DNA of 64,000 nt from Rhodocyclaceae bacterium (GTDB lineage: Bacteria > Pseudomonadota > Gammaproteobacteria > Burkholderiales > Rhodocyclaceae): assembly GCA_004379165.1 (NCBI GenBank), contig NKXK01000025.1:62001-126000 (forward strand). The letters are read 5' to 3'. Below the pieces are notes generated by a model. The model was not told the origin of the DNA and ran no database searches. It was given only the letters and a program-made list of their open reading frames with translations. Within the stretch, counting starts at the first letter, position 1; each line of letters opens with the position of its first letter. The position numbers and the translations under genes were made by a program. This document shows positions 2,322 to 64,000 of the stretch, piece after piece.

Positions 2322-3359
2322 TCAGGCCACCAGTGCCAGCAGCTTGGCGAAGGCCTCTTCGAACTGCTTCAGCCCGGCGTCGAGCAACTCCTGGCCGGCG
2401 GCTTCGAGGTCGACGCCGGCTGCCGCGACGGTAGCCAGTTGCGCCGCCGCGTCGGTGACGTGTCCGCTCAGGCGTTCTGCAGCTTCGCCGTGATCGCGGA
2501 AGGCGGCGAGGGTGGCGTCGGGGACGGTATTCACCGTGCCGCGGCTGATCAGTTCCTCGACGTAAATTACGTCGCGATAGGCTGCGTTCTTGGTCGAGGT
2601 CGAGGCCCAGAGCAGCATCTGCTGACGGGCGCCGCCGGGCAGGGGGGGCAGCGACTGCCATTCGCCATAGGCAGCGGCGGCAAATGCGATGGCGGTCTTG
2701 CCCTGCAGCGCCGCCGGCAGGCGCGGATCGAGCAGGCTGTCCACGCGGCTGATGAAGACGCTGGCGACCGAGTTGATGCGGTCAACCGGAAATCCGGCCG
2801 AAAACCGGCGTTCGATCCCGGCGCGGTAGGCGCCCTGAACCGCTGCCAGTTGTTGCGGCGAAAAGATCAGCGTGACGTTAACGTTGATGCCGTCAGCGAT
2901 GGCATCGGAAATCGCCTCGATGCCGGCGGGCGTGGCCGGAATCTTGATCATCGCGTTCGGCCGGTCGATTTCCGCCCACAGCCGGCGGGCTGCGGCGAGT
3001 GTGCCAGCGGCGTCGCTGGCCAGTGTCGGCGAGACCTCGAAGCTGACGAACCCGGCGCTGCCGCCGCTTTGGGCGTGGGTGGCGGCGAGCAGGTCGCAGG
3101 CCTTTCGGATGTCCGGCAGGACCAGCGATTCAAAGCGTTTTTCAGCGTCGACCGCGGTCGTCTTCAGTTTGGCGAGTGCAGATTGATAGGCCAGGTCATT
3201 GCGAATGGCGTTGTAGAAAATGGCCGGATTCGAGGTGACGCCGGCAATCGCGTCGTCGGCAATCCAGCGGGCGAGTTCGCCGGAGTCGAGCAGTTGGCGG
3301 GTCAGGTTGTCGAGCCAGATCTGTTGGCCGAGGGGGGCGATGGCGGCAATACGGGACAT
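2322..3359 (-). CDS. tal: transaldolase
   Basis: IWLDNLTRQLLDSGELARWIADDAIAGVTSNPAIF... and VNVTLIFSPQQ typical of transaldolase; start MSRIAA at 3359. Confidence 0.92.
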   Translation of the reverse strand: MSRIAAIAPLGQQIWLDNLTRQLLDSGELARWIADDAIAGVTSNPAIFYNAIRNDLAYQSALAKLKTTAVDAEKRFESLVLPDIRKACDLLAATHAQSGGSAGFVSFEVSPTLASDAAGTLAAARRLWAEIDRPNAMIKIPATPAGIEAISDAIADGINVNVTLIFSPQQLAAVQGAYRAGIERRFSAGFPVDRINSVASVFISRVDSLLDPRLPAALQGKTAIAFAAAAYGEWQSLPPLPGGARQQMLLWASTSTKNAAYRDVIYVEELISRGTVNTVPDATLAAFRDHGEAAERLSGHVTDAAAQLATVAAAGVDLEAAGQELLDAGLKQFEEAFAKLLALVA

Positions 3360-6640: not shown

Positions 6641-6880
6641 TCACGTGCTCCCATCGTTATCCGACTGTTGCCCAAAATGAAATTCCCGCGCGCCGGCGTG
6701 ATGCTGGACGCCGGGAGAGTCATCTTGCCCGATGGGTACGCGTGGGGCAAGTCCCGTTTTTTGCTGTTTCTTTATGTTGACCGCCGAATGCGCCAACGGT
6801 GCGGCTGTTCAACAAAAACTGGCGCTTTTTGCGCGATGGTGTAGAGTTAATTTAGGAAAGTCCGTTTTTGAGGTGGTTTC

Positions 6881-11773: not shown

Positions 11774-11782
11774 GAGGTGATC

Positions 11783-12469
11783 ATGGCTGAAGCGCGTACT
11801 GTCGATACCCGGGAGCGAATTCTCGACGCCGCTGAGCGCCTGTTCATGGCGCACGGCTATGAAGGTACTTCAATGCGCCAGATCACGGGCGAGGCCAATG
11901 TCAATCTGGCGGCAGTGAACTATCACTTCGGCTCCAAGGAGTCGTTGATGCAGGAGGTCTTTCGCCGCCGGCTCGACTGGCTTAACGAGGAGCGGATGCG
12001 GGTGCTTGATGCCTATGAAAAAGAAGCGGGCGGCAATCCGTTGAAGCCGTCGCAGATCGTCGATGGCTTTTTCGGCACCTTGTTGCGCATGGCTGACGAG
12101 GACGATCACGGCGGTATGACCTTCCTGCGCCTGCTCGGGCGGACGCTGACCGAGCCTTCAGAATTCATCCGCACCTTTCTCGCCCATGAGTACAAGCCGG
12201 TGATGGATCGCTACAAGGAAGTGCTGTTCCGGGCGCTGCCGGAGGTCCCCAAGGCCGAGATCGTCTGGCGCTTCCACTTCATGCTCGGCGCGACCTCCTA
12301 CGCCATTGCCGGCACCGATGCCTTGCGTCTGGTCACGGACTGGCAGATCGAGGAGGAAGACTCGACCGATCGTCTCGACCGCCTCGTGCCGCGCCTGATG
12401 TCCTTTCTGCTCGGTGGCTTGCGCGCACCGCTTCCGCAATTCGACCCGTCTGCGGTCAACCCGAAATAA
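11783..12469 (+). CDS. TetR/AcrR family regulator, PsrA-like
   Basis: TRERILDAAERLFMAHGYEGTSMRQITGEANVNLAAVNYHFGSKESLMQEVFRRRL; precedes beta-oxidation genes. Confidence 0.88.
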   Translation: MAEARTVDTRERILDAAERLFMAHGYEGTSMRQITGEANVNLAAVNYHFGSKESLMQEVFRRRLDWLNEERMRVLDAYEKEAGGNPLKPSQIVDGFFGTLLRMADEDDHGGMTFLRLLGRTLTEPSEFIRTFLAHEYKPVMDRYKEVLFRALPEVPKAEIVWRFHFMLGATSYAIAGTDALRLVTDWQIEEEDSTDRLDRLVPRLMSFLLGGLRAPLPQFDPSAVNPK

Positions 12470-12480
12470 CGCCAAAAACC
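12450..12480 (+). repeat. interspersed repeat copy (CTGCGGTNAACCCGGAAAA family), tetR 3' end
   Basis: ctgcggtcaacccgaaataacgccaaaaacc. Confidence 0.65.
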
Positions 12481-12505
12481 AATTACATCTTCAGGAGACA
12501 CACCC

Positions 12506-16152: not shown

Positions 16153-16157
16153 ACACT

Positions 16158-16192
16158 GCCGATTTTTGCCATTTTTTCGGGTTGACCGTGGA
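16158..16192 (-). repeat. interspersed repeat copy (reverse orientation) between thiolase and HAD/ECH genes
   Basis: reverse complement: ccacggtcaacccgaaaaaatggcaaaaatcggca. Confidence 0.6.
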
Positions 16193-16216
16193 TGTTGCCC
16201 GACAGGAGTTCGCAGC

Positions 16217-18121
16217 ATGAAGCACTGGGAACTGAGCACCGAGGCGAACGGGATCGCCATTGCTGTTCTCGACAAGGCGGGCGAATCCGCCAATTCGCTG
16301 TCTTCCGAAGTGATGGCCGAGTTCTCGCAGCTGCTCGACCAGCTCGACCTCTATCCGCCCAAGGGGCTGATCATCCGCTCCGGCAAGGACGCAGGCTTCA
16401 TCGCCGGCGCCGACATCGGCGAATTTTCGCAACTCGACACCCCGGAAAAGGGCATGGCGCTGGTGCAGCGCGGCTGGGATCTGTTCAACCGCCTGGAGGC
16501 CGTCAAATATCCGACGCTTGCCCTGGTCCGTGGCCACTGCCTGGGCGGCGGTCTGGAACTGGCGCTGGCCTGCCGTTACCTGCTGGCGGTCGATGAGTCA
16601 GGCACCAAGCTGGCGTTGCCTGAGGTCATGCTCGGCATATTCCCGGGATGGGGTGGGATGAGCCGGCTGCCGGCACGCGTTGGCCCGGCGGCGGCGCTCG
16701 ACATGATGCTGACCGGCAAGACCATCGACGCGAAGCGCGCCAAAAAAATGGGTCTGGCCGACGATTGCGTTCCACCGCGGGTGATGGAGATGGCTGCCCG
16801 GCAACTGCTGCTTTCCGGCCAGCCGCGTCGCCCCTTGCCCTTCGTGCAGAAACTGATGGCCGGCCCACTGAAGGGCATCGTCGCCAATGGTGCCCGCAAG
16901 CAGTTGGCAAAGAAGGCGCGGCCACATCACTACCCGGCGCCGTACGCGATCATCGACCTGTGGCAGAAACATGGCGGCAATGCGCTGGCTGCGCCGGAAA
17001 TCGTCGACGGCATCATCCGCTCGACGACAGCGCGCAACCTCGTCCGGGTTTTTCACCTGCAGGAGCGGCTCAAGTCTTTTGGCAAGAATTCCGCGTTCAC
17101 CGCAAAACACGTCCATGTCGTCGGTGCCGGCGTCATGGGGGGCGACATCGCCGCCTGGTGCGCGCTGCGCGGCATGACCGTCACCCTGCAGGACCAGAGC
17201 CTGGAGCGCATGAGTCCGGCGCTGCAGCGTGCCGGCAAGCTCTTTGCCCGCAAATTGCGCGATCCGCTCAAGGCGCGCGCCGCCTTCGACCGGCTGATTC
17301 CCGATGTGCGCGGCGACGGGGTGGCCCACGCCGACGTGATCATCGAGGCGATCTTTGAAAGCGTCGAGGTCAAGCACGCGCTGTTCTCCAGTATCGAGCC
17401 ACGCATGAAGCCGGGTGCCATTCTCGCCACCAACACCTCCAGCCTGCGCCTCGAAGACCTGCGCACGGTGCTCCAGCGGCCCGAACGACTGGTCGGCGTC
17501 CATTTCTTCAACCCGGTGGCGATGATGCCGCTGGTTGAAGTGGTCGAAGCTGACGGTGCCGATCCGGCCGCCGTGCAGGCTGCCTGTGCTTTCGTGAGAC
17601 AGATCGACAAGCTGCCGCTGCCGGTGAAAAGCGCCCCCGGCTTCCTGGTCAATGCCGTGCTGGCGCCTTACATGCTGGCCGCGATGCGGGCGGTCGATGC
17701 CGGTGTCTCGCCGGAAACGGTGGATGAAGCCATGCTCGCCTTCGGCATGCCGATGGGGCCAATCGAGCTGGTCGATACCGTCGGCCTCGACATCGCCATG
17801 GCTGCTGGCAAGCAACTGGCCGGCGGCGCCGATGCACCGCGCTGTTTGCTGGCGCGGGTGGAGAAAAATCAGCTTGGCAAGAAGAGCGGGCAGGGCTTCT
17901 ACGACTGGTCCAGTGGCAAGGCGGCCAAAGCCACAGCCGGCGCCGTGCCTGATGATCTGGCGGCGCAACTCGTCAAACCGCTGATCGATCGTGTCGAGCA
18001 GCTTGTGGCCTGCGGCGTCGTCGCCAATACCGAGTTGGCCGACGCAGGCGTGATTTTCGGCACCGGCTTTGCGCCCTTTACCGGCGGACCGCTGAACTAT
18101 CGGGCCAGTCTGGCAGGGTGA
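16217..18121 (+). CDS. 3-hydroxyacyl-CoA dehydrogenase / enoyl-CoA hydratase fusion (FadJ-like)
   Basis: GHCLGGGLELALACRYLL; VHVVGAGVMGGDIAAWCALRGMTVTLQD; FFNPVAMMPLVEVV. Confidence 0.92.
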   Translation: MKHWELSTEANGIAIAVLDKAGESANSLSSEVMAEFSQLLDQLDLYPPKGLIIRSGKDAGFIAGADIGEFSQLDTPEKGMALVQRGWDLFNRLEAVKYPTLALVRGHCLGGGLELALACRYLLAVDESGTKLALPEVMLGIFPGWGGMSRLPARVGPAAALDMMLTGKTIDAKRAKKMGLADDCVPPRVMEMAARQLLLSGQPRRPLPFVQKLMAGPLKGIVANGARKQLAKKARPHHYPAPYAIIDLWQKHGGNALAAPEIVDGIIRSTTARNLVRVFHLQERLKSFGKNSAFTAKHVHVVGAGVMGGDIAAWCALRGMTVTLQDQSLERMSPALQRAGKLFARKLRDPLKARAAFDRLIPDVRGDGVAHADVIIEAIFESVEVKHALFSSIEPRMKPGAILATNTSSLRLEDLRTVLQRPERLVGVHFFNPVAMMPLVEVVEADGADPAAVQAACAFVRQIDKLPLPVKSAPGFLVNAVLAPYMLAAMRAVDAGVSPETVDEAMLAFGMPMGPIELVDTVGLDIAMAAGKQLAGGADAPRCLLARVEKNQLGKKSGQGFYDWSSGKAAKATAGAVPDDLAAQLVKPLIDRVEQLVACGVVANTELADAGVIFGTGFAPFTGGPLNYRASLAG

Positions 18122-19698: not shown

Positions 19699-22098
19699 TT
19701 GAGCAAGCTGATCGTGAAGAAAGCAGCGGTTCTGGGCGCCGGTGTGATGGGGGCGCAAATTGCCGCGCATCTCGCCAACGCCAACGTGCCGGTGGTGCTG
19801 TTTGACTTGCCCGCAAAGGAGGGCGACAAGAATGGCGTGGTGAAAAAGGCGCTGGATGGCCTGAAGAAGCTGGACCCGGCGCCGCTGGCGAGCAAGGGCA
19901 AGCTGAAGTTCATTGATGCCGCCAATTACGACGAGCATCTGCCGCTGCTGGCCGAGTGCGATCTGGTGATCGAGGCCATCGCCGAGCGCATGGACTGGAA
20001 GAACGACCTCTACGCCAAAATCGGGCCGTTTTTGTCGTCGACCGCAATCGTCGCTTCCAACACCTCCGGCCTGTCGATGAACGCGCTGGCCCAGGGCCTG
20101 CCGGAAGCGGTGCGGCCGCGTTTCTGCGGCATCCACTTCTTCAATCCGCCGCGCTACATGCATCTGGTCGAGATCATCGGGACGCAGGGCACCGATGCCG
20201 CGACGCTGGATGCGCTGGAAACCTGGCTGACCTCGCGTCTGGGCAAGGGCGTCATCCGCGCGCTGGACACCCCGAACTTCGTCGCCAACCGCATTGGGGT
20301 TTTCTCGATTCTCGCCGTCATGCACCACACGCAGGCCTTCGGTCTCGGTTTTGATGAAGTCGATGCGCTGACCGGCCCGAAGATCGGGCGACCGAAGAGC
20401 GCTACCTACCGTACCGCCGATGTCGTCGGTCTCGATACGCTGGCCCATGTCGTCAAGACCATGCAGGACACCTTGCCGAATGACCCCTGGCACGCGCATT
20501 TCACCAATCCGGCCTGGCTGCAGGCGCTGATCACCAAGGGAGCGCTCGGCCAGAAAACCCGTTGCGGCATCTTCCGCAAGCAGGGTAAGGAAATCCAGGT
20601 GCTCGATCTGGCGGCGCAGGATTACCGCAAGTCTGCTGGTGAAATCGCCGACGAAGTCGCGGCCATCCTCAAGATCAAGTCGCCGGCCGAGAAATTCGCT
20701 GCGCTGCGCGCTTCCGGCCATCCGCAGGCGCAGTTCCTGTGGGCGATTTTCCGCGACATCTTCCATTATGCGGCGGTGCAGCTTGAAAACGTCGCCGACA
20801 ATGCCCGCGACCTCGACCTCGCCATGCGCTGGGGCTTCGGCTGGGCGCAGGGGCCGTTCGAAACCTGGCAGGCTGCCGGCTGGGCAGATACCGCACAAGC
20901 CGTGGCCGCGGATATCGCGGCTGGCAAGGCCATGGCCGGCGTGCCACTGCCGGCCTGGGCGCTGGAGGCCGGACGTACCGGCGTGCATGCCGCCGAAGGT
21001 TCCTACTCCGCCAGCAAGAACGCCTATGTCGCACGTTCAACGCTGCCGGTGTATCAGCGCCAGCTTTTCCCCGAGCGTGTACTCGGCGAAGTGGCGCCGA
21101 CGCCGGAAAAGTCAGGCGAAACACTCTACGAGAACGATGGCGTCCGTCTGTGGCGCCTGCCGGCGGTCGACGCTGGAATTGGCATCATTTCGGTCAAGTC
21201 GAAGATGCACACCATTGGCAACGAAGTCCTCGACGGCGTGATTGCCGCCGTGCGTCAGGCGGAAGGCACGCTGGACGGTGTGGTGGTCTGGCACGAAGCG
21301 CCGTTTGCCGTCGGCGCCAACCTGCAGCAGGTTTCCGAAGCCATCGCCGCCGGCCAGTTCGATCTGCTCGAACAGACGGTCGAGAAATTCCAGCGCGCCT
21401 CGCAGACGCTGAAGTACGCGCAGGTGCCGGTGGTGGCTGCGGTGCAGGGCATGGCGCTCGGCGGCGGTTGCGAATTCGTCATGCACGCCGGCAAGCGCGT
21501 GATGGCGCTGGAAAGCTACATCGGTCTCGTCGAGGCCGGCGTCGGCCTGATTCCGGCCGGTGGTGGCTGCAAGGAATTCGCCGTGCGCGCGGCCGACTGG
21601 GCTGCCCAGTCGAATGTGCCGGGCGAAGTCTTCAATTACCTGCAGAACGCCTTCATGACCATCGCCATGGCCAAAGTGGCCAAGAGTGCGGTGGAAGCCA
21701 TTGACTACGGTTTTGCCAGACCGTCCGACACCATCCTCTTCAACGCCAACGAACTGCTCTGGGTGGCGATCCGCGAAGCGCGGGCCATGGCCGATGCCGG
21801 CTACGTTCCGCCGCCGATGGCCCGCGCCATCCCGGTCGCCGGCAAGAACGGCATTGCCACCTTCGAGATGATGCTGGTGAACATGAAGGAAGGCGGCATG
21901 ATCTCCGCCCATGACTACCTGGTCGCCCGTTCCGCTGCCGTCGCCCTGTGCGGCGGCGAGGTTGAAACCGGCAGCCTGGTCGATGAGGAATGGCTGATCA
22001 CCGTCGAACGCCAGTTGTTCGTCGAATTGCTGAAAAACCCGCTGACGCAGGCCCGGATCAAGCACATGCTTGAAACCGGCAAGCCGCTCTGCAACTAA
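19699..22098 (+). CDS. 3-hydroxyacyl-CoA dehydrogenase / enoyl-CoA hydratase fusion
   Basis: TTG start after aaaggaga; LIVKKAAVLGAGVMGAQIAAHLANANVPVVLFDLP; CGIHFFNPPRYMHLVEII; GMALGGGCEFVMHAGKRV. Confidence 0.92.
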   Translation: MSKLIVKKAAVLGAGVMGAQIAAHLANANVPVVLFDLPAKEGDKNGVVKKALDGLKKLDPAPLASKGKLKFIDAANYDEHLPLLAECDLVIEAIAERMDWKNDLYAKIGPFLSSTAIVASNTSGLSMNALAQGLPEAVRPRFCGIHFFNPPRYMHLVEIIGTQGTDAATLDALETWLTSRLGKGVIRALDTPNFVANRIGVFSILAVMHHTQAFGLGFDEVDALTGPKIGRPKSATYRTADVVGLDTLAHVVKTMQDTLPNDPWHAHFTNPAWLQALITKGALGQKTRCGIFRKQGKEIQVLDLAAQDYRKSAGEIADEVAAILKIKSPAEKFAALRASGHPQAQFLWAIFRDIFHYAAVQLENVADNARDLDLAMRWGFGWAQGPFETWQAAGWADTAQAVAADIAAGKAMAGVPLPAWALEAGRTGVHAAEGSYSASKNAYVARSTLPVYQRQLFPERVLGEVAPTPEKSGETLYENDGVRLWRLPAVDAGIGIISVKSKMHTIGNEVLDGVIAAVRQAEGTLDGVVVWHEAPFAVGANLQQVSEAIAAGQFDLLEQTVEKFQRASQTLKYAQVPVVAAVQGMALGGGCEFVMHAGKRVMALESYIGLVEAGVGLIPAGGGCKEFAVRAADWAAQSNVPGEVFNYLQNAFMTIAMAKVAKSAVEAIDYGFARPSDTILFNANELLWVAIREARAMADAGYVPPPMARAIPVAGKNGIATFEMMLVNMKEGGMISAHDYLVARSAAVALCGGEVETGSLVDEEWLITVERQLFVELLKNPLTQARIKHMLETGKPLCN

Positions 22099-22228: not shown

Positions 22229-23428
22229 ATGAGCAAACAGATTCAAGAAGCCTACATCGTCGCCGCGACCCGACTGCCGGTCGCCAAACGCAACGGCATG
22301 TTCCGCAACGTCCGTCCGGACGACATGCTGGCCGCCGTCCTCAAGGCCGTCGTCGCGCAGGTGCCGGGTGTCGATCCGGCGCGTATTGGCGATGTCATCG
22401 TCGGTTGTGCAATGCCGGAAGCCGAGCAGGGCATGAACGTTGCCCGTATCGGCTCGCTGCTTGCCGGCCTGCCGATCACCGTGCCCGGCATCACCATCAA
22501 CCGCTTCTGCTCCTCCGGCCTGCAGGCCGTGGCCGATGCCGCCAACCAGATCCGCCTCGGCCTCGCCGATGTGATGATCGCCGCCGGCACCGAGTCGATG
22601 TCGGTGATGCCGCAGATCATGGGCAACAAGATGTCGATGAACCCGGCGATTTTCGCGAAGGAGGAAAACCTCGGTATCGCCTACGGCATGGGCCTGACGG
22701 CAGAAAAGGTTGCCAACCAGTGGCAGATCAGCCGCGAGGCGCAGGATGAATTTGCGCTGGCTTCCAACCAGAAGGCCTGCGCCGCCATTGCCGCCGGTCA
22801 TTTCAAGGCGGAGACCACGCCCTACGTCATCCGCGAAAGCCTGCCCGACCTCGCGTCTGGTCAAATCAAGGTGCGCGAACGCACCGTCGATACCGACGAA
22901 GGTCCGCGGGCCGACGCCTCGGTCGAGAAGCTCGGCAAGCTGAAGCCGGTGTTCCACGCCCGCGGTTCGGTCACTGCCGGCAATTCCTCGCAGATGTCGG
23001 ATGGCGCGGCAGCGGTCATGCTGGTCTCGGAAAAGGTGCTCAAGGAACACAAGCTGACGCCGCTCGCGCGCTTTGCCAGCTACGCCATCGGCGGCGTAGC
23101 GCCGGAGATCATGGGCATTGGCCCGGTCGCCGCCATTCCGAGGGCACTGTCCCAGGCCGGCATCAGTCAGGCCGATCTCGACTGGATCGAACTCAACGAA
23201 GCCTTTGCCGCGCAGTCGCTGGCGGTGGTCAAGGAACTGGGTCTCGATCCGTCCAGAGTCAATCCGCTCGGCGGCGCCATTGCTCTCGGCCACCCGCTCG
23301 GGGCCACCGGCGCCATCCGCACGGCGACCATCGTCCATGGCATGCAGCGTACCGGCGGCCGCTACGGCATGGTGTCGATGTGCATCGGCACCGGCATGGG
23401 CGCCGCCGGCATCTTCGAGCGCCTGTAA
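22229..23428 (+). CDS. acetyl-CoA acetyltransferase (thiolase)
   Basis: MSKQIQEAYIVAATRLPVAKRNGMFRNV...NRFCSSGLQAVADAANQI...GGAIALGHPLGATGAIRTATIVHGM. Confidence 0.93.
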   Translation: MSKQIQEAYIVAATRLPVAKRNGMFRNVRPDDMLAAVLKAVVAQVPGVDPARIGDVIVGCAMPEAEQGMNVARIGSLLAGLPITVPGITINRFCSSGLQAVADAANQIRLGLADVMIAAGTESMSVMPQIMGNKMSMNPAIFAKEENLGIAYGMGLTAEKVANQWQISREAQDEFALASNQKACAAIAAGHFKAETTPYVIRESLPDLASGQIKVRERTVDTDEGPRADASVEKLGKLKPVFHARGSVTAGNSSQMSDGAAAVMLVSEKVLKEHKLTPLARFASYAIGGVAPEIMGIGPVAAIPRALSQAGISQADLDWIELNEAFAAQSLAVVKELGLDPSRVNPLGGAIALGHPLGATGAIRTATIVHGMQRTGGRYGMVSMCIGTGMGAAGIFERL

Positions 23429-23435
23429 GCGGCTG

Positions 23436-23470
23436 CTGCGGTGAACCCGGAAAAGTGCTGAAAATCGACC
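23436..23470 (+). repeat. interspersed repeat copy (intergenic)
   Basis: ctgcggtgaacccggaaaagtgctgaaaatcgacc. Confidence 0.75.
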
Positions 23471-23471
23471 G

Positions 23472-23984
23472 ATGAAACCTGCCTGGCTTGCCAAACTGCC
23501 ACCCGCCTGGCGTGCGCGCATGGTGCGGATGGGCTTCAACCTCCATCCCGCCTTTCGCGGAACCGGCGGCCGGGTCGAGCATGTCGCGGGCGATCTGCGC
23601 CATATCCGGGTCCGCCTGCCGCTCGGCTGGCGTACCAAGAACATCGTCGGTTCGCTCTACGGTGGCTCGCTGTTCGCGATCACCGACGGGGCGCATCCGA
23701 TGATGCTGATGGCGGCGCTGGGCGAGGATTTCATCGTCTGGGACAAGTCGGCCAGCATTCGTTACCGCAAGCCGGGTTACACCACGCTCTATGCCGATTT
23801 CACGCTGCCCGATGAAGAACTGGCGAGCATCCGCCGGACACTCGAAGCGCAGCCGGATCTCGAACGGACCTTTACGGTCGAACTCAAGGATGCCCACGGG
23901 ACGGTCTACACTGTCGTCGAGCGAACCGTGTATATCGCTCACAAAACACACTACCGTCAAAGAACGGGTGGAGGAGACAGATGA
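23472..23984 (+). CDS. DUF4442-like hotdog thioesterase
   Basis: 170 aa; NIVGSLYGGSLFAITDGAHPMMLMAALGEDFIVWDKSASIRYRKPG. Confidence 0.75.
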   Translation: MKPAWLAKLPPAWRARMVRMGFNLHPAFRGTGGRVEHVAGDLRHIRVRLPLGWRTKNIVGSLYGGSLFAITDGAHPMMLMAALGEDFIVWDKSASIRYRKPGYTTLYADFTLPDEELASIRRTLEAQPDLERTFTVELKDAHGTVYTVVERTVYIAHKTHYRQRTGGGDR

Positions 23985-27186: not shown

Positions 27187-27215
27187 AATTCCAAAATACA
27201 ACAGGAGACACAGTA

Positions 27216-29024
27216 ATGAGCGACTACCGCGCCCCGATCAAGGACATGCGCTTCGTCATGGATGAACTGGCAGGCTTTCGCGAGATCAGCGCGCTGCCCG
27301 GTTACGAGGAGGCAACCCCCGATCTGGCCGATGCCGTGCTTGAAGAAGCCGCCAGGTTTGCCGGCGAAGTGCTGGCGCCATTGAACCGTGTTGGTGACAA
27401 GGAAGGCTGCAAACTGACCGCCAACGGCGTGACCACCCCGCCGGGCTGGAAGGAGGCCTACAAGGCCTTCTGCGAAGCCGGCTGGAATGGTGTCGCCTCG
27501 CCGGCCGACTTCGGTGGCCAGGGCCTGCCGGATTCGCTGGGCGTTGCGATCAAGGAAATGGTCTGCTCGGCCAACCTCTCGTTTTCGCTTGGTCCGCTGC
27601 TCACCACCGGTGCTGTCGAAGCACTGATCACCTGTGCCAGCGACGAGCTCAAGGCGATCTATCTGGAAAAGATGGTCACCGGCGAATGGACCGGCACGAT
27701 GAACCTGACCGAGCCGCAGGCCGGCTCCGACCTCGCGCTGATCCGCTCCCGTGCCGAGCCGCAGGCCGATGGCAGCTACAAGGTCTTCGGCCAGAAGATC
27801 TTCATCACCTACGGCGACCACGACATGACCGACAACATCGTGCATCTCGTCCTCGCCCGTCTGCCGGACGCGCCGGCCGGGGTGAAGGGCATCTCGATGT
27901 TCCTGGTGCCGAAATTCCTGGTCAATGCCGATGGTTCGCTCGGCGCCCGCAACGATGCCTACTGCGTCTCCATCGAGCACAAGCTCGGCATCCACGCCAG
28001 CCCGACCTGCGTCATGGCCTACGGTGATAATGGCAACTTCGGTGGCGGCGCCGTCGGCTACCTGCTCGGCGAGCCGAACCGCGGCCTGGAATACATGTTC
28101 ATCATGATGAACGAAGCCCGCCTCGGCGTCGGCCTGCAGGGCATCGCCCTCGGCGAACGCGCCTACCAGCAGGCGCTGGGCTATGCCCGCGAGCGCAAGC
28201 AGGGCCGCGATGCGCTGACTGGCGAGGCGTTGGTGACCATCGACAAGCACCCGGATATCCGCCGCATGCTGATGTTGATGAAGGCGCGCGTCGAAGCCAG
28301 CCGGGCGCTGGCCTATTACACCTCCGGCATGCTCGACCATGCGCATGCTGCGGTAAACCCGGAAAAGCGGCAAAAATCGCTGATGCTCGCCGAGTTCATG
28401 ATTCCGCTGGTCAAGGGCGGTGGCACCGAAATGGGCATCGACGTCACCTCGCTCGGCATCCAGATTTACGGCGGCATGGGCTTCATCGAAGAGACCGGCG
28501 CCGCCCAGCACTGGCGCGACTCGCGCATCACGACCATTTACGAAGGCACCACCGGCATCCAGGCCAATGACCTGCTGTTCCGCAAGCTGATGCGCGATCA
28601 GGGTGCGACAGCCAAAATTGTTTTCGGCGAAGTTCATGCCACAGCCAAGTCGCTGGGTGCCAGCGGCAAGCCGGAGCTGCAGGCCATCGGCCAGCGGCTC
28701 GGTACCGCCCTCAAGGCCTGGACGGACGCCACCGAATGGCTGGCCGCCAATGCCAAGAGCGGACTTTCGGGCGTGCTCACCGCCGCCGTGCCCTATCTGC
28801 ATCTGGCCGTGACCGTGACCGGCGGCTGGATGATGGGCAAGGCCGCACTGGCTGCTAGCGGCTACCTCGACAAGGGCGAGGGCGATCTGCCCTTCTACCG
28901 CGCCAAGGTCGCCACCGCCCGCTTCTACGCCGACCAGCTGCTGCCGCAGGCCGCCGCGTATGCCGAGACGGTCAAGGCCGGCGATGCGGCCATCGCCGGC
29001 ATGAGTGGCGACGAACTGTTCTGA
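27216..29024 (+). CDS. acyl-CoA dehydrogenase
   Basis: MSDYRAPIKDMRFVMDELAGF...GTMNLTEPQAGSDLALIRSRAEPQADGSYKVFGQKIFITYGDHDM...GIQIYGGMGFIEETGAAQHWRDSRITTIYEGTTGIQANDLLFRKL. Confidence 0.93.
   Translation: MSDYRAPIKDMRFVMDELAGFREISALPGYEEATPDLADAVLEEAARFAGEVLAPLNRVGDKEGCKLTANGVTTPPGWKEAYKAFCEAGWNGVASPADFGGQGLPDSLGVAIKEMVCSANLSFSLGPLLTTGAVEALITCASDELKAIYLEKMVTGEWTGTMNLTEPQAGSDLALIRSRAEPQADGSYKVFGQKIFITYGDHDMTDNIVHLVLARLPDAPAGVKGISMFLVPKFLVNADGSLGARNDAYCVSIEHKLGIHASPTCVMAYGDNGNFGGGAVGYLLGEPNRGLEYMFIMMNEARLGVGLQGIALGERAYQQALGYARERKQGRDALTGEALVTIDKHPDIRRMLMLMKARVEASRALAYYTSGMLDHAHAAVNPEKRQKSLMLAEFMIPLVKGGGTEMGIDVTSLGIQIYGGMGFIEETGAAQHWRDSRITTIYEGTTGIQANDLLFRKLMRDQGATAKIVFGEVHATAKSLGASGKPELQAIGQRLGTALKAWTDATEWLAANAKSGLSGVLTAAVPYLHLAVTVTGGWMMGKAALAASGYLDKGEGDLPFYRAKVATARFYADQLLPQAAAYAETVKAGDAAIAGMSGDELF
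28348..28381 (+). repeat. interspersed repeat copy inside acyl-CoA dehydrogenase CDS
   Basis: ctgcggtaaacccggaaaagcggcaaaaatcgct, translated AVNPEKRQKS. Confidence 0.7.
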
Positions 29025-33912: not shown

Positions 33913-34446
33913 ATGAGCGATCAGGAAGTTTGCCTTTTCTATCGGCTTGACCAAAGCGATCGCATTACGGCGATCGGCGGTGCCTGGGACCGGATGGCGC
34001 AGGAAAACGGCGGCGATCGGCTTTGCGGTGACTCGGTTGTCGGTCGCCCGCTCTATGACTTCATCAGTGGCGATATCAGCAAGATGTTTGTCAGGACCGT
34101 CATCGAGGGTGTTCGGGTTTTGCAGAGACCTCGGACGGTGCCTTACCGGTGTGACTCGCCGGGACTCAGACGCTACATGGAAATGTCGATCAAATGCGAA
34201 CCGGGCGGAGGCTTGCTGCTTGAGCACCGACAAGTCCGCACCGAAGCGACCGGCAGACGTTTCGATTTCAGGGTGGGCAGGCAGCCGCTCCGACAGATGG
34301 TGGTTCGTTGTTCTCACTGCAATGCCGTCAAATTCGAGGGGCGATGGGGGGAGCCGGAGGCGTTGCTGCCGGTGGCGTCGACCACCGATGTTCCAGTGAT
34401 CTACGGGGTCTGCCCGAATTGCATGGATCTGGTGCGAAGAATATGA
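33913..34446 (+). CDS. PAS-like domain protein with C-terminal CxxC...CxxC zinc-binding motif
   Basis: [34 protein letters not shown]...[10 protein letters not shown]...[13 protein letters not shown]. Confidence 0.65.
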
Positions 34447-37400
34447 ACGATGCACTCAATTTCCCGGTGCCCGATGCTCCCCGAGGCGGAATTGCCAGTG
34501 ATTTGCCGTCGTCCACAGCCGATTACCTGACGCAAATCGAATCGGTCGTCAGTGTCGGCGCCTGGCGTCTCAATCCCGATACGGCCTGGCTGCAATGGAG
34601 CGATGGCATTTATCAGATGTTGGGGCACCCTAAGTCCGAGCCCCCCTCTCTGGTTGCGGGCTTGGGCTATTTTGACGGGGAAAGCCGTGGCCGCGTTGAG
34701 GCCGCGCTCGCCGAGAGTTGGCAGCATGGTAGCCCTTTCCTGTTGCAGGTGGCGATGCATACGCGCCAGGGCACGCCCATCTGGGCTGAGTTGCGTTGTC
34801 AGGGGCGGACCGATGCGGGTGACGAGAGCTACCTCAGTGGCATTCTGCTGAATGTTTCCGATCGCCTTTCGATGATGGAACGGGCGATGTCCGCGGAAGC
34901 GCGCCTTCAGTTTTGGGGAGACATGCTTCCGGACGGGCTGCTCGAACTGACGCTGGATGGTCGGATTGCTTCGGTCAATAAAAAGGCAATGACCCTTCTC
35001 GGCTACACCGATCGGCATACGTTGCTGGGGAGTGTTTTCTCCCGCCTCTTGCCGGCAATGATGGATGAAAACCTGCATGCAGTGAGCACTGGGCAAACCC
35101 CCCTGAGTCGGGTCATGGAGGAAGGCTTTGGTTCGGCCTCGGACGTTTATGGCGTGAAAGATCGCCTCGGTCGCGTTGTGTGGGTCGAAATGCATGTGAG
35201 GCCGATGCGTGACGAACACGGCACGGTGCAGAACTTTGCCGTGCTGCTTCGAGATATCAACGTGCTCAAGCGGCTTGAGTCACAGCATCGTCAGGAAGTT
35301 GCAGTTCACGCTGAAACTGAAGAGATCGCCCGCCTTCGCCTTGGTCACTGGAGGCTCTATCTACCAACCGATAAATTGAGTTGTTCTCAGCAATGTGCAG
35401 TGGTGCTTGGTATGGCAGGAATGCATGTTTTCTCGCGTGCGGATTTTGTTGCCCGCGTTCATGCTGACGACCTGCCCGCCCTGCGATTGGCCTGGAAGCA
35501 TGCCCGGGACAGCGGGGAAATCGATATCGAATGTCGTTTACGGCCGGAGTTCGGTGAGCGCTGGATACGATTGATTGGTCGGGTGACGCGCAATCGCAGT
35601 GGTAAAGCCTATGCGGCCAGTGGTGTGGTTCAGGATATTTCTGACCGGCGGCGAACAGAAGAGCAGTTGCGGAAAATTTCGGTCGCCATCGAGCAGAGCC
35701 CCAATGCCGTCCAGATCACCGATCTGCAGGCCCGTCTCGAGTACGTCAACCCGGCTTTCGAGAAGTTGACTGGCTACACGCGCGAGGAAGCCATGGGGCG
35801 GAATCCGTCTTTCCTGGCCTCGGGACTGACGCCGAAAGCAACTATCCGCGATCTTTGGGAAAAACTGCTTAGCGGGCAGACCTGGCAGGGGGAACTGATC
35901 AACCGGAAGAAATCCGGCGAAACTTATGTTGAATATGCGTTCATTTCGCCGGTGCATCAGGCCGATGGTCGGGTGACACACTTTCTTGCGCTCAAGGAGG
36001 ACATGACCGAACGCAAGCGGCTGGCGGAGGAACTGGATGCGCATCGCCACCATCTCGAAGATCTGGTCGCGCAACGTACTCATGAACTGATTGAGGCCAA
36101 GGCGGTGGCCGAGGCTGCCAGTGCCGCCAAGAGCAGTTTCCTGGCCAGCATGAGTCATGAAATCCGGACACCTTTGAATGCCATTATCGGCCTCAACCGG
36201 ATGGCACTCAGGCTCAGCCATGACCCTGTTCAGCAAGGGCAACTGCAGCGACAGTCGGGCGCGGCCGAACATCTGCTGCAAGTGATCAACGATATTCTCG
36301 ATTTCTCCAAAATCGAGGCCGGAAAGTTGCAACTGGAGCGCACCGCACTCGATTTCGGCGACATCTTCGAAAATTTGCAGGCGATCCTGCAGCCACGTGC
36401 CGATGAGCGAGGGCTCAGACTGCAATTGCAGATAGATCCGGCACTGAACACGCTGGCCCTGTTTGGCGACCCATTGCGGCTGGGCCAGGTGTTGATCAAT
36501 CTTGGAAACAACGCGATCAAGTTCACCGAGCAGGGCGAGGTGACGGTTGGCGCCAAGCTCGTTGCTCAAAATGACACGCAGGTTGATGTGTGCCTGTTCG
36601 TTCGCGATACTGGCATCGGCATGAGTGCTGACGCGCAGGCGAAGTTATTCGAGGAATTCACGCAGGCCGATCAATCCATTAGCCGACGCTATGGTGGCAG
36701 TGGGCTGGGGCTGGCGATTACCCATCGTCTTTTGCAGATGATGGGTGGCAGTATTCGCGCTGAGAGCGAGCAGGGGCGGGGCAGTCTGTTTGAAATTCGT
36801 CTCAAGCTGCCAATCGATACTGGAACGCACCATCCATCACTGGCTGCGGTCGACACTGAAAAGTTGCTGAAATCGCGTTTCCCCAACTTGCGTGTTTTGC
36901 TGGCTGAGGATAATCCGATCAACCAGGAGGTGACTGTTGATCTCCTGCGGCCGGTCGCGGTGCAGATCGATGTGGCTAACGATCGCAGCGAGGCCGTCGC
37001 GCTGGCGAAAGACGCACGCTATGACCTCGTGCTGATGGACATGCAGATGCCAGTGATGGACGGCCTGGAGGCGACGCGGCAGATCCGGGCGCTCGAGAAC
37101 TGGTCGGATGTACCGATCATTGCGCTAACCGCAAATGCGTTTGCGGAGGATCGTGAGCGCTGTCGGCAGGCCGGGATGAACGACCACTTGGGCAAGCCAG
37201 TTGAGGCGCATGTGGTGTACCGCATGATGCTGCATTGGCTGATGCAGCCAAGGGTCGCACTACCAACACCGGTAGCCGCTCCGGCGCCGGTGGTCGCCCA
37301 GACCGCTACTGTGATTGATCTGGCTCCGGGTGATCCGATCTCCGCCCTGGTCGGTCTGCCCGGTTTCGATGTAGAGGCAGGTCTCCGCTACCTTGGCGGA

Positions 37401-37776: not shown

Positions 37777-39654
37777 ATGGCTGATCCATCACAGCCGGAT
37801 GACCCCGGGTTTTTGACCAATTTTCAGGTCGACCGCAAGTCGCTGCTTACCAGAGACATCGGTGAGCGGTTGCTGGCACTGAGTCCGTCGCCAGTTCTGC
37901 TTTTGGACATGAAAAGTGCTTCGATCATTGAGGCCAATCCGGCGGCGCAGGCAATTTTCGGAAGTGCGCAACTGCCGTTGGTGGGCACGCATTTCATGCA
38001 TTGTTTTCGGCATCCTGAGGATGGTAAGCACATACTCGACGAACGGCTGGAGCATGTCGCGCTCCAGTATTTCGTTTTGGGCGCCGGCCGACACCTCCCG
38101 GTGGAGCTTGATTTGCGGCGACTCGATGACGCGGGTGTGATATTGGTATTCATCCGCGATCTGACGTCGCGATTGGCACTCGATAATCAGCGGCTGATCG
38201 CCCAGCGCAATTACAGGCTGCTTTTCGACAACGCTCCGCAGCCGATGATGCTGCTCGACAAGGGCTTTGTGATCGTCGGTGCCAATCGCGCTGCCGCGAT
38301 TCTCTACGGTTTTGCCGATAATGAGATCCCCTTGCTCAGTCTCAAGGCGATGCTTGTGAACCCGCGTGACCTTGACCAATACCGCGTGCAACTGGATCCG
38401 CGCACCCTGGCACCACAGTGGCATTGGCGGACGGACGGCAGTCAGCGTTTGATCGAGCCGTCGGTCTCGACCTTGCGGCGCGAGCGGCAGACTTTCCTGC
38501 TGGTGGTGCTGCGGGATGTCACAGACAGCGAGCATCAGATTGCCGAACTCCGGCGGGCCGAGGAACGTTGGCGTTTTGCCCTCGATGGCCACGGTGATGG
38601 TGTCTGGGAATGGTTGCCACAGAGCGGGGAGGCCATCGTTTCCCAGCGGTTTCTCGACATGCTGGGGTTTGGCGTCGAGGATGCCCGGCATCCCTTCGAT
38701 TACTGGGATGCGCGGGTGCATCCTGAAGACTATCTGCGAATGCACTTGGCGATCATGCAGCATTTTCTCGCCGAGTCGCCGGTAATTGCTGGTGAATACC
38801 GGATGATGACCGTCGACGGTCAGTATCGCTGGCTGGCCATCCGGGCTCGCGCAATCGAGACCGATGCCAGCGGTCGCATTGATCGAATCATCGGTACTGT
38901 GCGCGATGTACACGAGCAACGTCGGCAAGAGCAACGCGAGCGCTTGCAGCAGGAACAGTTGATGCATACAGCCCGTCTGGCGACGATGGGCGAACTGGTG
39001 ACGATGATCGCGCATGAGGTTACGCAACCGCTGACGGCGATCAGCAATTACTCAGCGGTTGCCCGTCGCCACCTGCAACGCCAGGGTGACAGCGTGCCGG
39101 CAGATGCCACCCACGCGCTGAACCGTATTTCGGAACTGGTCAGCCATGCCGGCGAAGTGGTGCATCGTATCCGCAGCTTTGTTCGCAAGGGGGAGCTGAG
39201 GCTGGAGCCGATTTCGATCAACGTCCTCATTGTTGATGTGGCGCGCCTGGCCGAGATCCAGGCGCGGGCACTGTCGGCAGAGATTGATCTCGATCTGGCC
39301 ATCGGTTTGCCCGAACTGACCGGCGACCGGATGCAGCTTGGGCAGATGCTGTTGAATCTGGCCCGTAACGGGTTGGAGGCGATGGGGGCGGTGGATGGTC
39401 CGCGCCGACTGAAATTGCGTTCTGCGCTGAACTCCGAAAACGAGATCACGGTCGAAGTTGAGGACTGTGGTTGCGGGCTGTCGGCGGCGTTGGCGATGGA
39501 CGTAATTACCCCGTTCTTCACCACCAAGCCGGAGGGCCTGGGCATGGGCTTGGCGATCTGCAAAACGGTCGTCGAGAACCACCAGGGTCGCCTCTGGGTC
39601 AGCGCTGCCAAACCTGCGGGCACGGTCTTTCATGTTGCCCTTCCGGTGAGGTGA
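37777..39654 (+). CDS. PAS sensor histidine kinase (FixL/DctB-like HisKA)
   Basis: LATMGELVTMIAHEVTQPLTAISNYSAVA; LGMGLAICKTVVENHQGRLWV; no obvious TM segment. Confidence 0.9.
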   Translation: MADPSQPDDPGFLTNFQVDRKSLLTRDIGERLLALSPSPVLLLDMKSASIIEANPAAQAIFGSAQLPLVGTHFMHCFRHPEDGKHILDERLEHVALQYFVLGAGRHLPVELDLRRLDDAGVILVFIRDLTSRLALDNQRLIAQRNYRLLFDNAPQPMMLLDKGFVIVGANRAAAILYGFADNEIPLLSLKAMLVNPRDLDQYRVQLDPRTLAPQWHWRTDGSQRLIEPSVSTLRRERQTFLLVVLRDVTDSEHQIAELRRAEERWRFALDGHGDGVWEWLPQSGEAIVSQRFLDMLGFGVEDARHPFDYWDARVHPEDYLRMHLAIMQHFLAESPVIAGEYRMMTVDGQYRWLAIRARAIETDASGRIDRIIGTVRDVHEQRRQEQRERLQQEQLMHTARLATMGELVTMIAHEVTQPLTAISNYSAVARRHLQRQGDSVPADATHALNRISELVSHAGEVVHRIRSFVRKGELRLEPISINVLIVDVARLAEIQARALSAEIDLDLAIGLPELTGDRMQLGQMLLNLARNGLEAMGAVDGPRRLKLRSALNSENEITVEVEDCGCGLSAALAMDVITPFFTTKPEGLGMGLAICKTVVENHQGRLWVSAAKPAGTVFHVALPVR

Positions 39655-44848: not shown

Positions 44849-45328
44849 ATGGACATCGTCTGGCCTGTCGTCGGTTGGGTGGTCATCGTCATCGGGCTGG
44901 CCGGTGTCATTCTGCCGATGCTGCCCGGTGCGCCGCTGATCTTTATCGGCATCACGATCATTGCCTGGAGTGGCGATTTTAGGCGAGTTTCCGAGTTTAC
45001 CGTAGCTTTTGTCGGATTGCTGGCGGTCTTGTCGTGGAGTATCGACTACCTGGCGGCGAGCTTGGGGGTCAAGCGTGTGGGCGCCAGCTCGCTTGCGGTG
45101 CTTGGTGCGGTCGTCGGTACCGTTCTCGGCTTGTTCGCCGGCCTGGTCGGCGTCTTGCTGGGCCCGATCGTCGGCGCGACCATTGGCGAATGGCTGGCGC
45201 GACGAGACGGGGGGCTGGCCACACGGGCAGGTTTTGCTGCCGGGGTCAGTTTTCTGCTCGGCATCGTCGCCAGGGTCGGCATCGCTTTCATGATGATCGG
45301 CATCTGCGCCGTGGCCTGGCTGGTGTAG
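44849..45328 (+). CDS. DUF456 family membrane protein
   Basis: MDIVWPVVGWVVIVIGLAGVILPMLPGAPLIFIGITIIAWSGDF...Gly-rich TM helices. Confidence 0.8.
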   Translation: MDIVWPVVGWVVIVIGLAGVILPMLPGAPLIFIGITIIAWSGDFRRVSEFTVAFVGLLAVLSWSIDYLAASLGVKRVGASSLAVLGAVVGTVLGLFAGLVGVLLGPIVGATIGEWLARRDGGLATRAGFAAGVSFLLGIVARVGIAFMMIGICAVAWLV

Positions 45329-49517: not shown

Positions 49518-50009
49518 TTATTGCAGCAGTTGCGGGGTGACGGCTTCGAGGTCGGTCTTCCTGACCAGCCCCATTTTTTTCTGGATCACCTGACCATTGC
49601 GGTCGATGAACAGCGTGTAAGGCAGGCCGGCCTTGGTGTTGCCCAGTTCCTTCATCAGCGTGATGCCCTTGTCCTTGGCGACGAACACCGGGTAGTCCAT
49701 CTCGTAGGCCTTGGCGAATTCCTTGGCCGGTTCGGCCTTTTCTTCGATGCCGATGCCAAGGATCTCGACCTTGCCCTTGTGCTGCTTGCGAAAGTGGATC
49801 AGTTCCGGGATTTCGGCACGGCAGGGGCCGCACCAGCGGGCCCAGAAGTTGACGATCAAGGGTTTTCCCTTGTAGCGCGAGAGCGCCACCGGCTTGTCGT
49901 CGAGATCGCTCAGTGTTGCGGCAAACAGGGGCGCGGACGAGAGTTGTTCGTCGGCTGCGGTGAACGCGGAAAATAGGCCAAAAACGGCAACGGCAAGGAG
50001 CTTTCTCAA
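49518..50009 (-). CDS. TlpA/ResA-like thioredoxin-fold protein
   Basis: signal peptide; PLIVNFWARWCGPCRAEIPELIHF. Confidence 0.92.
   Translation of the reverse strand: MRKLLAVAVFGLFSAFTAADEQLSSAPLFAATLSDLDDKPVALSRYKGKPLIVNFWARWCGPCRAEIPELIHFRKQHKGKVEILGIGIEEKAEPAKEFAKAYEMDYPVFVAKDKGITLMKELGNTKAGLPYTLFIDRNGQVIQKKMGLVRKTDLEAVTPQLLQ
49954..49990 (+). repeat. weaker match to interspersed repeat, inside tlpA signal-peptide region
   Basis: gctgcggtgaacgcggaaaataggccaaaaacggcaa. Confidence 0.4.
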
Positions 50010-52203: not shown

Positions 52204-52284
52204 GGCGGGAATTTTAGGGACAGGCGGCGTGCAGGCGTTGAACCTGGATCAAGAAATATGCAGCGAAGCCGCAAGGGTCGGGCA

Positions 52285-52320
52285 TCTGCGGTCAACCCGG
52301 AAAACCAGCGAAAAGCGGGA
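52285..52320 (+). repeat. interspersed repeat copy between nosF and nosH
   Basis: tctgcggtcaacccggaaaaccagcgaaaagcggga. Confidence 0.75.
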
Positions 52321-55579: not shown

Positions 55580-56554
55580 TCACTCCGCCTGACCGTCACG
55601 CAACTGCTTGCGACGGATGAGGAGTGCCAGCATCATGCAGACGAAGATCACCATCAGCAGGCCGTAGCCCCAGTACGGGTAGGAGAAGGTCGAGAACTGC
55701 GCCACCTTGCCTTCGCCGAAAACGGTCGGCATGAAGGGCTTGACGGTGAAGGCGCCCCACGGATGCAGGTTGTGACCGAAGAACCACAGCCAACCGGCAT
55801 AGGTGATGACGAAGAACACCGGCAACAGGGCCGGTACGAGCGCCAGCAGCAACTGGAAGCTGCGAATCATCGCAGTGGCGGCGATGACCACCACCATGAC
55901 GCCGATCAGGCCGAAGATGACGATTTTCGAAATGCTCATCACGTTATCGCCCCAGACCTTGATCTTGTCTGGTTCGTTAAAGAAGGTCGCGGTTTCGGCC
56001 ATGTAGTACGTGACGTGGCTGGCCAGCTTGCCCATGACGAACTGGTCGACAATCATCCAGCCGGCGACGGCGGTGAAACCTGCGGTCAACACGGAAATCC
56101 GGGCTTTTTTGCCGGTCATCGCGAAAGCAGCGAGCATGACGCCGAAGAAGCCGAAGAAGAACTTGGCCAGCGGCTTTTCCACCGGGGCGCCCGATGCGAT
56201 CGGGAACATGCCGACGTAGTGGTTGATGGTGTTCATTTCATGGACGCAGTCGAGGCCTTCGGCGCCCTTGTTGTGATCCTTGTTGGCGTCGGTGATCGGG
56301 TTGTAGCGCTCGTCTTCGTGCGAGAGGTCTTTCTGGATGATCTCGTTCGCCATGCGCGTGCCCTTGCCGGCCGCCTTGCAGCCGTTATAGACACCATCGA
56401 AATGGAAGTGGATGCGGATACCGTCCGGGAAGGCATCGGCAGGGTAGTTCGGCGCGGTGAGCGAGACCCACCAGATCGGGGCAAAGTAGGCGACGACGAG
56501 GCAAATGAGGGATACCAGGGTCAAACCGCCGATGAGTTTGTTTTCTTTTGTCAT
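55580..56554 (-). CDS. nosB: NosB-like integral membrane protein of clade II nos clusters
   Basis: MTKENKLIGGLTLVSLICLVVAYFAPIWWVSLTAPNYP...RIHFHFDGVYNGCKAAG...LDCVHEMNTINHYVGM; position in cluster. Confidence 0.8.
   Translation of the reverse strand: MTKENKLIGGLTLVSLICLVVAYFAPIWWVSLTAPNYPADAFPDGIRIHFHFDGVYNGCKAAGKGTRMANEIIQKDLSHEDERYNPITDANKDHNKGAEGLDCVHEMNTINHYVGMFPIASGAPVEKPLAKFFFGFFGVMLAAFAMTGKKARISVLTAGFTAVAGWMIVDQFVMGKLASHVTYYMAETATFFNEPDKIKVWGDNVMSISKIVIFGLIGVMVVVIAATAMIRSFQLLLALVPALLPVFFVITYAGWLWFFGHNLHPWGAFTVKPFMPTVFGEGKVAQFSTFSYPYWGYGLLMVIFVCMMLALLIRRKQLRDGQAE
56080..56115 (+). repeat. weaker match to interspersed repeat inside nosB
   Basis: ctgcggtcaacacggaaatccgggcttttttgccgg. 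Confidence 0.35.
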
Positions 56555-62098: not shown

Positions 62099-64000
62099 GT
62101 GGATTCAGGGGCGGCCTTACGGCGCATCTTTCGCACGCAGTGGTTATTGGCCGGCCTGGCGCTGGTCCTGATCGCCATTGGCATCGCCTACCACTGCCTG
62201 AGCACCCATGCCGAAACCGGACGCCGCGAACAACATCAACTGAGCCACCTCGGTAGTCTGGTCGGACAACTGGTTGAACGCCGGCTGAGCGCAGTCGATG
62301 CGCTGCTGACGATGGTCGCCGGGCAGTATCCGGGCTATCTGCCGCCACCAGGCGAGCTCGACAAGCTGTCGGCCGACATGCAGCGCTATATCATGCTCGG
62401 GCGCGGCGCCGACATCCTGTTGCTGCTCGATGCCAGGGGCGAAGTCCTGGCCTCGAACCGGCCGGAACTGGTCGCCCAGAACTTCGCGCACCGTTACTAC
62501 TTCCGGGAAGCGAAAGCTGCGGTGAACCCGGAAAATCGCATTATTTCGCCGCCCTTCGAGACGGTACTCGGCGACTATACCTTCACGCTGTCGCGCAAAC
62601 TGGTGGATCCCGATGGGGAATTCATTGGGGTGCTGATGGCGACGCTGGATGCGCCTTTCATCTCGCGTCTGCTGGGCGGTGTGCTGATGAGCGAGGACAT
62701 GTGGGCGGCGCTGGTGCATGGCACCGGGGTGACGGTCTTGTCAGCGCCCGAACATCGCTTGCCCGACGGGCAGGACATCCAGCGTGCCGGGGGGTTTGTC
62801 GCGGCCGTGCCGGCTGCGCATGGCGAGCAGCGTTTGCTTGAAGACGCCGTCACCCTGGGTGAGCCGCATGCCGTGGCGGTGATGCGCATTTCGCCGCCGG
62901 AGCTTCAGCTCAATCAGCCGCTGATCGTTGGTGTCGGCCGCAATCTTGATGCCGCCTACGCCAACTGGCGGCGCGAGACCTGGGCGCTGGGGGCGCTGTA
63001 CCTGATGCTTGTCGCCGCCGCATTTTTCGGATTGCGGCATTACCAGCGCCGGGTGCGCGATGACTGGAAGCAGGTGACGCGGCAGCAGGCGCTCATCGAA
63101 ATGGCCGGGGATGGTATTCATGTGCTCGACCGCAACGGGGTGGTCGTCGAGGCCAATCCTGCCTTCCTCAAACAACTGGGTCTGGACCGTTCCGATCTCG
63201 GCAGGCTTCGGGTCAGCGATTTCGATACGGTGCTGGATGAGACACAACTCGCCCGGAACATGCAGGCGCTGCTGGCGCGTAACGAGGAAATGCGCATCGA
63301 GTCAGTGCATCGGCGCCGCGATGGCAGTCAACTCGATGTCGATGTCAGTGCACGGGGCTTCGAACTGGATGGCGAGATGCTGATCCTTGCCTCGGCTCGC
63401 GATATCTCTGGCCGCAAGGCCGTCGAGGCGCAATTGCGCAAGCTGACGCTGGCCGTCGAGCAAAGCCCGGAGAGTGTGTTCATTACCGACGCCCGGGCGC
63501 GCATCGAATACGTCAATCCTGCCTTTGTCGAAACTAGCGGGTATCGTGCCGATGAACTGATCGGGCAGAACCCGCGCATCCTCGCCTCTGGCCTGACGCC
63601 CGTCGAAGAGTACCGTGCGATGTGGGACACCCTGCTCGCCGGCGGTATCTGGCGTGGCGAATTTGTGAACCGGCGCAAGAATGGCGAGACTTACGTCGAA
63701 GCCGAGATCATCTCGCCGATCCGCAACCCGGCCGGCGAGATGACGCACTATTTGGCGATCAAGCAGGATGTCACCGAGCGGCGACGGATCGAGAACGAGC
63801 TGGCCGCCTACCGTGAGTCGCTGGAACACAAGGTCGACGAGCGTACCGCGGCCCTGACCGAGGCCAACCAGGCGCTGGCTGCCGCGCGCGACAAGGCCGA
63901 GGAGGCCACCCGCGCCAAGGCAGCTTTCCTCGCCAACATGAGCCATGAAATCCGAACGCCGATGAACGGCATCATCGGTATGCTCCATCTGCTGCGGCGG
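62099..64000 (+). CDS. Cache-PAS-PAS sensor histidine kinase (partial, runs off window end)
   Basis: GTG start, open frame to window end; [64 protein letters not shown]. Confidence 0.88.
62517..62550 (+). repeat. interspersed repeat copy inside sensor kinase Cache domain
   Basis: ctgcggtgaacccggaaaatcgcattatttcgcc. Confidence 0.6.

Follow-up and report, generated by a model that had tools for sequence, protein, structure and literature searches.

An interspersed 36-base motif of Azonexus and Dechloromonas genomes with the features of a DNA uptake sequence

The window, that is, the whole stretch of 64 kb that was analysed, belongs to the genome (3.06 Mb, 44 contigs) of a wastewater-type bacterium and contains many copies of a short motif, located both in open reading frames (ORFs) and between them. 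A weight matrix (PWM) identifies 16 sites scoring at least 10 in the window:

23433..23468, + strand: motif copy, intergenic, between ORFs 22229-23428 and 23472-23984; PWM 47.3; copy named in the original prediction
28345..28380, + strand: motif copy, inside a 618-aa ORF, 27168-29024; PWM 49.1
52283..52318, + strand: motif copy, intergenic; PWM 45.3
62514..62549, + strand: motif copy, in ORF 62144-62719 (- strand); PWM 38.3
49952..49987, + strand: motif copy, in ORF 49518-50009 (- strand); PWM 48.6
12447..12482, + strand: motif copy, at the 3′ end of ORF 11777-12469; PWM 39.8
16159..16194, - strand: motif copy, in ORF 15989-18121 by codon-usage call; PWM 40.9
44973..45008, - strand: diverged copy, in ORF 44849-45328; PWM 30.3
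56077..56112, + strand: diverged copy, in ORF 55580-56698 (- strand); PWM 25.9
36841..36876, + strand: diverged copy, in ORF 34308-37694; PWM 23.8
37806..37841, - strand: diverged copy, in ORF 37759-39654; PWM 23.4
2773..2808, + strand: diverged copy, in ORF 2322-3509 (- strand); PWM 21.9
17073..17108, - strand: diverged copy, coding; PWM 20.4
6754..6789, - strand: degenerate copy, intergenic; PWM 17.6
20015..20050, - strand: degenerate copy, coding; PWM 13.1
3125..3160, - strand: degenerate copy, coding; PWM 12.2

With up to 3 mismatches, the core CTGCGGTNAACCCGGAAAA occurs 12 times in the window versus 0.04 times expected in shuffles, which bears out the original prediction of a genuine, undescribed-looking interspersed repeat. 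The four exact core copies reported at 23436, 28348, 52286 and 62517 were recovered, together with the diverged copies at 12450 and 16173-16191 (- strand), and the weaker matches near 2777, 49955 and 56080 proved genuine by the weight matrix (scores 21.9, 48.6 and 25.9); the claimed presence in both orientations, in ORFs as well as in intergenic gaps, was likewise borne out.

The alignment of 67 good copies, taken from the window and from further stretches of the same genome totalling 800 kb, defines a non-palindromic unit of about 36 bases with the consensus CkGCTGCGGTSAACCCGGAAAA, N6 and AAAATCGG (spelled out, approximately C-k-G-C-T-G-C-G-G-T-S-A-A-C-C-C-G-G-A-A-A-A-N6-A-A-A-A-T-C-G-G). Information in this alignment spans positions -4 to +31 relative to TGCGGT, the flanks outside being uninformative, so that the unit length given earlier was too short; the earlier denial of a palindromic REP was correct, and no terminal inverted repeats are present at the motif ends of the aligned copies. 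The spacer, previously described as variable, does vary in sequence but not in length, which is fixed at six bases: of 96 good copies, 85 have the start of the second A-tract within 1 base of where the consensus puts it, and position-specific information runs ungapped through the spacer into this tract. The A/T tracts occupy approximately positions 18-21 and 28-31 (0-based) of the 36-mer. Most copies are imperfect, and their core mismatches form a continuous spectrum from 0 to 7.

The motif is not confined to the window: the 17-mer TGCGGTNAACCCGGAAA, with at most 1 mismatch, has 228 matches genome-wide (112 on the + and 116 on the - strand) and none in the reversed control, contrary to the lack of copies elsewhere that had been named as evidence against the repeat. 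The 36-position matrix finds 229 sites (121 + and 108 -; reversed control 1-2) in 864 kb, a 28% sample of the genome that includes the window and on which all distribution figures rest; by extrapolation, the genome would contain about 800-900 copies. According to gene calls made by codon usage within this analysis, the sites divide into 132 coding, 86 intergenic and 11 boundary ones, against 85, 13 and 2% under random placement; thus, 58% of the sites are coding although 87% of the bases are, and motif density is 4-5 times higher between genes. For H. influenzae, where coding DNA makes up about 86% of the genome, the quoted share of uptake signal sequences (USS) within ORFs is 65% (PMC2346458).

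Coding sites are almost equally distributed between the two orientations relative to the gene (68/64), with one codon phase favoured in each (49 and 45 sites), encoding, as read from the consensus, AAVNPE in the sense and FSG(L/F)TAA in the antisense direction. Spacing between copies is evener than random (CV 0.83), and gaps shorter than one tenth of the mean spacing make up 4.5% versus 9.5% expected. Intergenic density reaches 1091 copies per Mb in convergent gaps, 761 in co-directional and 208 in divergent ones. Overlapping inverted pairs of copies also exist; several of them, though not all, fold as strong hairpins, and some are terminator-like, while most copies are single. The strand of the motif is weakly associated with local GC skew (134 vs 95, on contigs C11, C21, C35 and C37 and in the window), which could hint at a replication-strand effect.

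The copy at 28345 is informative on how the motif originates. Thirty genomes align gap-free across it, and most of them have ordinary diverged codons at this place; genome G002 has CCACGGTCAACCCGGAAAATCGGCAAAAATCG in the same codons, containing its own dialect core CCACGGTCAAC, and G030 has a decayed version. To judge from this alignment, the motif at 28345 arose by substitution. At the 23433 locus, the corresponding place in the G003 orthologue is occupied by a copy in another spelling, ATGCCACGGTCAACCCGAAAAAATGGCCAAAATTGA, while at the 17073 locus the orthologue from the same genome has no motif (score -35.8) in an ungapped alignment. A wider test comprised 27 coding sites and 65 protein alignments with at least 65% identity: gaps of unit length (10-12 residues), as an insertion would need, were found in none of the 65, and gaps of 3-7 residues within the motif in 5 (7.7% versus 1.9% in control windows). 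Aminoacid identity in the 65 alignments is 0.50 in the motif and 0.85 outside; this difference, together with the more frequent in-motif gaps, indicates that the motif settles in loosely constrained stretches, and protein-level conservation in homologues lacking the motif, named by the original prediction as what would speak against the repeat, does not explain it. Intergenic alignments are gappy and uninformative on the origin of copies. In this limited sample, copies thus appear to arise without unit insertion, by point mutation.

Exact full matches occur in records named Dechloromonas, Azonexus, Azonexaceae and Rhodocyclaceae, and in six stray records. Counts in 77 Azonexus/Dechloromonas genomes range from 4 to 608, with the reversed control remaining near background; more than 200 copies are found in about 16 genomes, near-background numbers in about 30 and intermediate numbers in the others. 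The richest genomes cluster on a one-gene tree (2 changes, with 0 of 500 shuffles as low) and adjoin a motif-less clade, support values being rough. The matrix was re-estimated in nine motif-bearing genomes, using samples of 100-370 kb for the genomes other than the source: all nine dialects retain CGGTCRAC (with S for C in the source genome) and two A/T tracts about 10 bases, or one helical turn, apart, and differ in the bases flanking CGGTCRAC. The dialect of the source genome is kCTGCGGTsAACcyGrAAAw, that of G002 is TkCCACGGTCAACCGGAAAAAw.GGCyAAAwwyG, that of G291 is twtyCACGGTCGACCsk (570 sites per Mb) and that of G020 is CkGTTGCGGTCrACcssg; G003, G035, G297, G310 and G322 have similar spellings. 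Four motif-poor genomes have 0-1 sites per 100 kb sample, and de novo ranking of 9-mers in motif-poor genomes (100 kb each) returned generic codon-like words and no other uptake-sequence-like motif.

Outside the genus, the loose core RCGGTSRACNNNAAA remains near background in 250 genomes of the order, three families excepted. The weak enrichment in these families (f23, f46 and f48) was considered as the same motif and rejected, consisting largely of ACGGTGAACRGTAAA, in part in tandem; this looks like a different repeat mimicking the core. One example is at G154:C259:21812-21910, and others are in G110, G172 and G209, partly tandem with a 14-base period. Four of the six stray records belong to the Rhizobium group (L135, L139, L147 and L149), with one exact long-pattern match each, perhaps in a single orthologous gene.

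The source genome encodes an intact ComEC, with which Pfam agrees, DprA, a helix-hairpin-helix protein of the ComEA type whose N-terminus is signal-like, and a cluster of type IV minor pilins, among them a FimT/GspH protein and a PilE-like one. Competence genes as such are widespread and do not prove competence. The PilE-like pilin matches the Pfam family ComP_DUS with 44 bits, and its top sequence matches in the PDB are to other pilins, of which none is called ComP; the Pfam match may reflect no more than a general similarity among minor pilins. The genes for the FimT/GspH-type and the ComP_DUS-type pilins are adjacent at G000:C4:16719-17632 (- strand; loci L177 and L207), and their products are the two best candidates for the DNA receptor. 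The FimT-type proteins matter because the proposed receptor of the Pasteurellaceae USS, PpdA/ComN, belongs to the FimT/GspH family (PMC12616744). By presence or absence, no receptor tracking the motif emerged among the 77 genomes, where FimT- and PilE-like pilins are nearly universal, motif-poor genomes included.

A strong uptake preference is known in species of two families, both mostly of animal mucosa (PMC7811141), and a 2026 terminator survey covering thousands of genomes names uptake sequences for Pasteurellaceae and Neisseriaceae only (PMC13020248). In the open-access literature, no link of uptake sequences to Rhodocyclales, Dechloromonas or Rhodocyclaceae was found; a description in a subscription journal is possible.

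The Pasteurellaceae USS comprise a Hin-type, AAGTGCGGT, and an Apl-type, ACAAGCGGT, with the extended forms AAAGTGCGGTCAATTTT (eHin) and AACAAGCGGTCAAATTT (PMC12616744). Like them, the present motif is discontinuous, with a core followed downstream by two A/T-rich tracts and a total of about 32-36 bp (PMC12616744); the earlier argument that a variable spacer speaks against an uptake sequence fails, as the spacer length is fixed and this layout resembles the Haemophilus USS (PMC12616744). Both share the inner core GCGG(T), followed in the Azonexus motif by the same CAA, which results in a common octamer, GCGGTCAA; a rough count of octamer pairs puts the chance of one such coincidence in the order of 1%. 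Common features are also the hundreds to thousands of copies, the origin by point mutation, the dialects and the intergenic excess (PMC12616744, PMC7811141, PMC2346458). Unlike the USS, the motif lacks AAG, the 5′ half of the Hin 9-mer, and its first A/T tract begins about 8 bases past CGGT, separated from it by CCCGG, as opposed to about 3 in the USS; moreover, the other Azonexus dialects retain CGGTCRAC, but GCGG is replaced by ACGG in some of them, and the host is a high-GC genus of Rhodocyclales. Neither USS 9-mer, AAGTGCGGT or ACAAGCGGT, is present, the consensus CTGCGGTSAACCC sharing only TGCGGT / GCGGT.

In the uptake sequences of Neisseriaceae (DUS), dialects follow phylogeny around an inner core, and some relatives are without any (PMC3630211). 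The motif resembles the DUS, e.g. GCCGTCTGAA, in its copy numbers, dialects around an inner core, motif-less relatives and inverted pairs in terminators. The DUS receptor is ComP, and the PilE-like pilin of the source genome, with its Pfam match, may be of the ComP_DUS type. The sequences differ, however, and DUS are continuous and at most about 13 bases long, whereas the motif is discontinuous and of about 36; all DUS dialects are 10-13-mers that have CTG as inner core, and CTG is not retained in dialects of the present genus like CCACGGTCAAC. As far as sequence goes, the motif is neither a Pasteurellaceae USS, lacking the 9-mer, nor a Neisseriaceae DUS, from which core and length set it apart. 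With REP elements and MITEs it has in common to be short, interspersed and commoner between genes, but it is non-palindromic, often located inside ORFs and without an insertion signature.

Other explanations were weighed against these data. The motif would improbably be a genome-wide binding site of a chromosome-organising, segregation or regulatory protein, selected site by site and co-evolving with it: the regular spacing, the weak strand association with GC skew, a length sufficient for a specific binder and the lineage-specific spellings are in its favour, but the copies amount to hundreds and up to about 2000 per genome, mostly with imperfect cores (0-7 mismatches), those in ORFs, which are found on both strands, fall on poorly conserved residues, and about 30 close relatives are at background, which would be odd for an essential chromosome function. 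A mobile short repeat, REP- or MITE-like and inserting itself with the help of a transposase, would also be interspersed in both orientations with an intergenic excess, and gaps are slightly commoner at motif positions than elsewhere; this origin is nevertheless very hard to sustain and was rejected as largely refuted by the gap-free alignment of 30 genomes at 28345, pointing to substitution, and by the 65 coding alignments, none with a unit-length gap, to which are added the lack of information past 36 bases and of terminal inverted repeats, and the species-specific spellings at orthologous positions.

The excess of copies in convergent gaps, their scarcity in divergent ones and the strong folding of some overlapping inverted pairs are what a transcription terminator, or another RNA element at gene ends, would produce. 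As the primary function of the motif, this is highly unlikely, given that most copies are single and non-palindromic and that coding sequence holds 132 of the 229, in either orientation; in addition, a terminator role is a known by-product of true uptake sequences (PMC12616744, PMC13020248).

The motif is most probably a DNA uptake sequence of a naturally competent Azonexus/Dechloromonas species. Uptake sequences are marked by a high copy number, occurrence on either strand, regular spacing, enrichment between genes, scarcity in constrained coding DNA, inverted pairs, an origin other than by insertion, dialects that share an inner core, and a host with transformation machinery, and the motif shows each of these; these hallmarks, and a literature naming two families only, suggest a third, previously undescribed lineage as the best reading, with a layout closest to that of the Haemophilus USS. 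Receptor binding, biased uptake and molecular drive would be the underlying process. A minor type IV pilin at the cell surface would prefer double-stranded DNA carrying the core (C)TGCGGTSAAC and two downstream A/T tracts, which, being one helical turn apart, would allow the DNA to bend or kink; the retracting pilus, together with ComEA and ComEC, would then draw motif-bearing DNA inside, and DprA/RecA would recombine it. Fragments gaining the motif by point mutation would be taken up and recombined more often, and because of this the motif would accumulate chromosome-wide, for the most part in intergenic DNA and at protein positions under weak constraint, while the preferred spelling would have drifted into dialects among the species of the genus.

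It is a more tentative, rather doubtful proposal that this third natural lineage of uptake specificity has a FimT/ComN- or ComP-type pilin as receptor, reading the same geometry, GCGGTCAA plus A/T tracts, as in the Pasteurellaceae USS. If so, uptake-sequence recognition either arrived at a single DNA shape convergently or traces to a shared pilin ancestor; the shared layout and an octamer so rarely matched by chance make it possible, if unproven, that the motif and the Pasteurellaceae USS converged on the same DNA geometry or have a common ancestor.

How self-specific DNA uptake originated is a matter of debate. If environmental and wastewater bacteria have a third lineage of it, this would represent an independent replicate, within a genus in which dialects are many, some sister clades are empty and complete genomes are available; it would permit direct tests of molecular-drive theory and of receptor-motif co-evolution, and would test whether uptake specificity needs mucosal host DNA to evolve. 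Motif-rich members of the genus would also be predicted to be transformable with DNA bearing the right tag, a practical handle on environmental bacteria that are hard to engineer.

Among the longest copy-free stretches of the source genome are a region of low GC content that has a TniQ-like gene and, next to it, the nuo operon, both named by eye, and the motif scarcity in newly acquired segments is anecdotal, being drawn from such stretches. The motif-free region, at G000:C37:1-20062 (L064 and L065), has a GC content of 0.56 over 38 kb and encodes the TniQ-like protein and large unknown ORFs; it is a probable recently acquired island beside the nuo operon.
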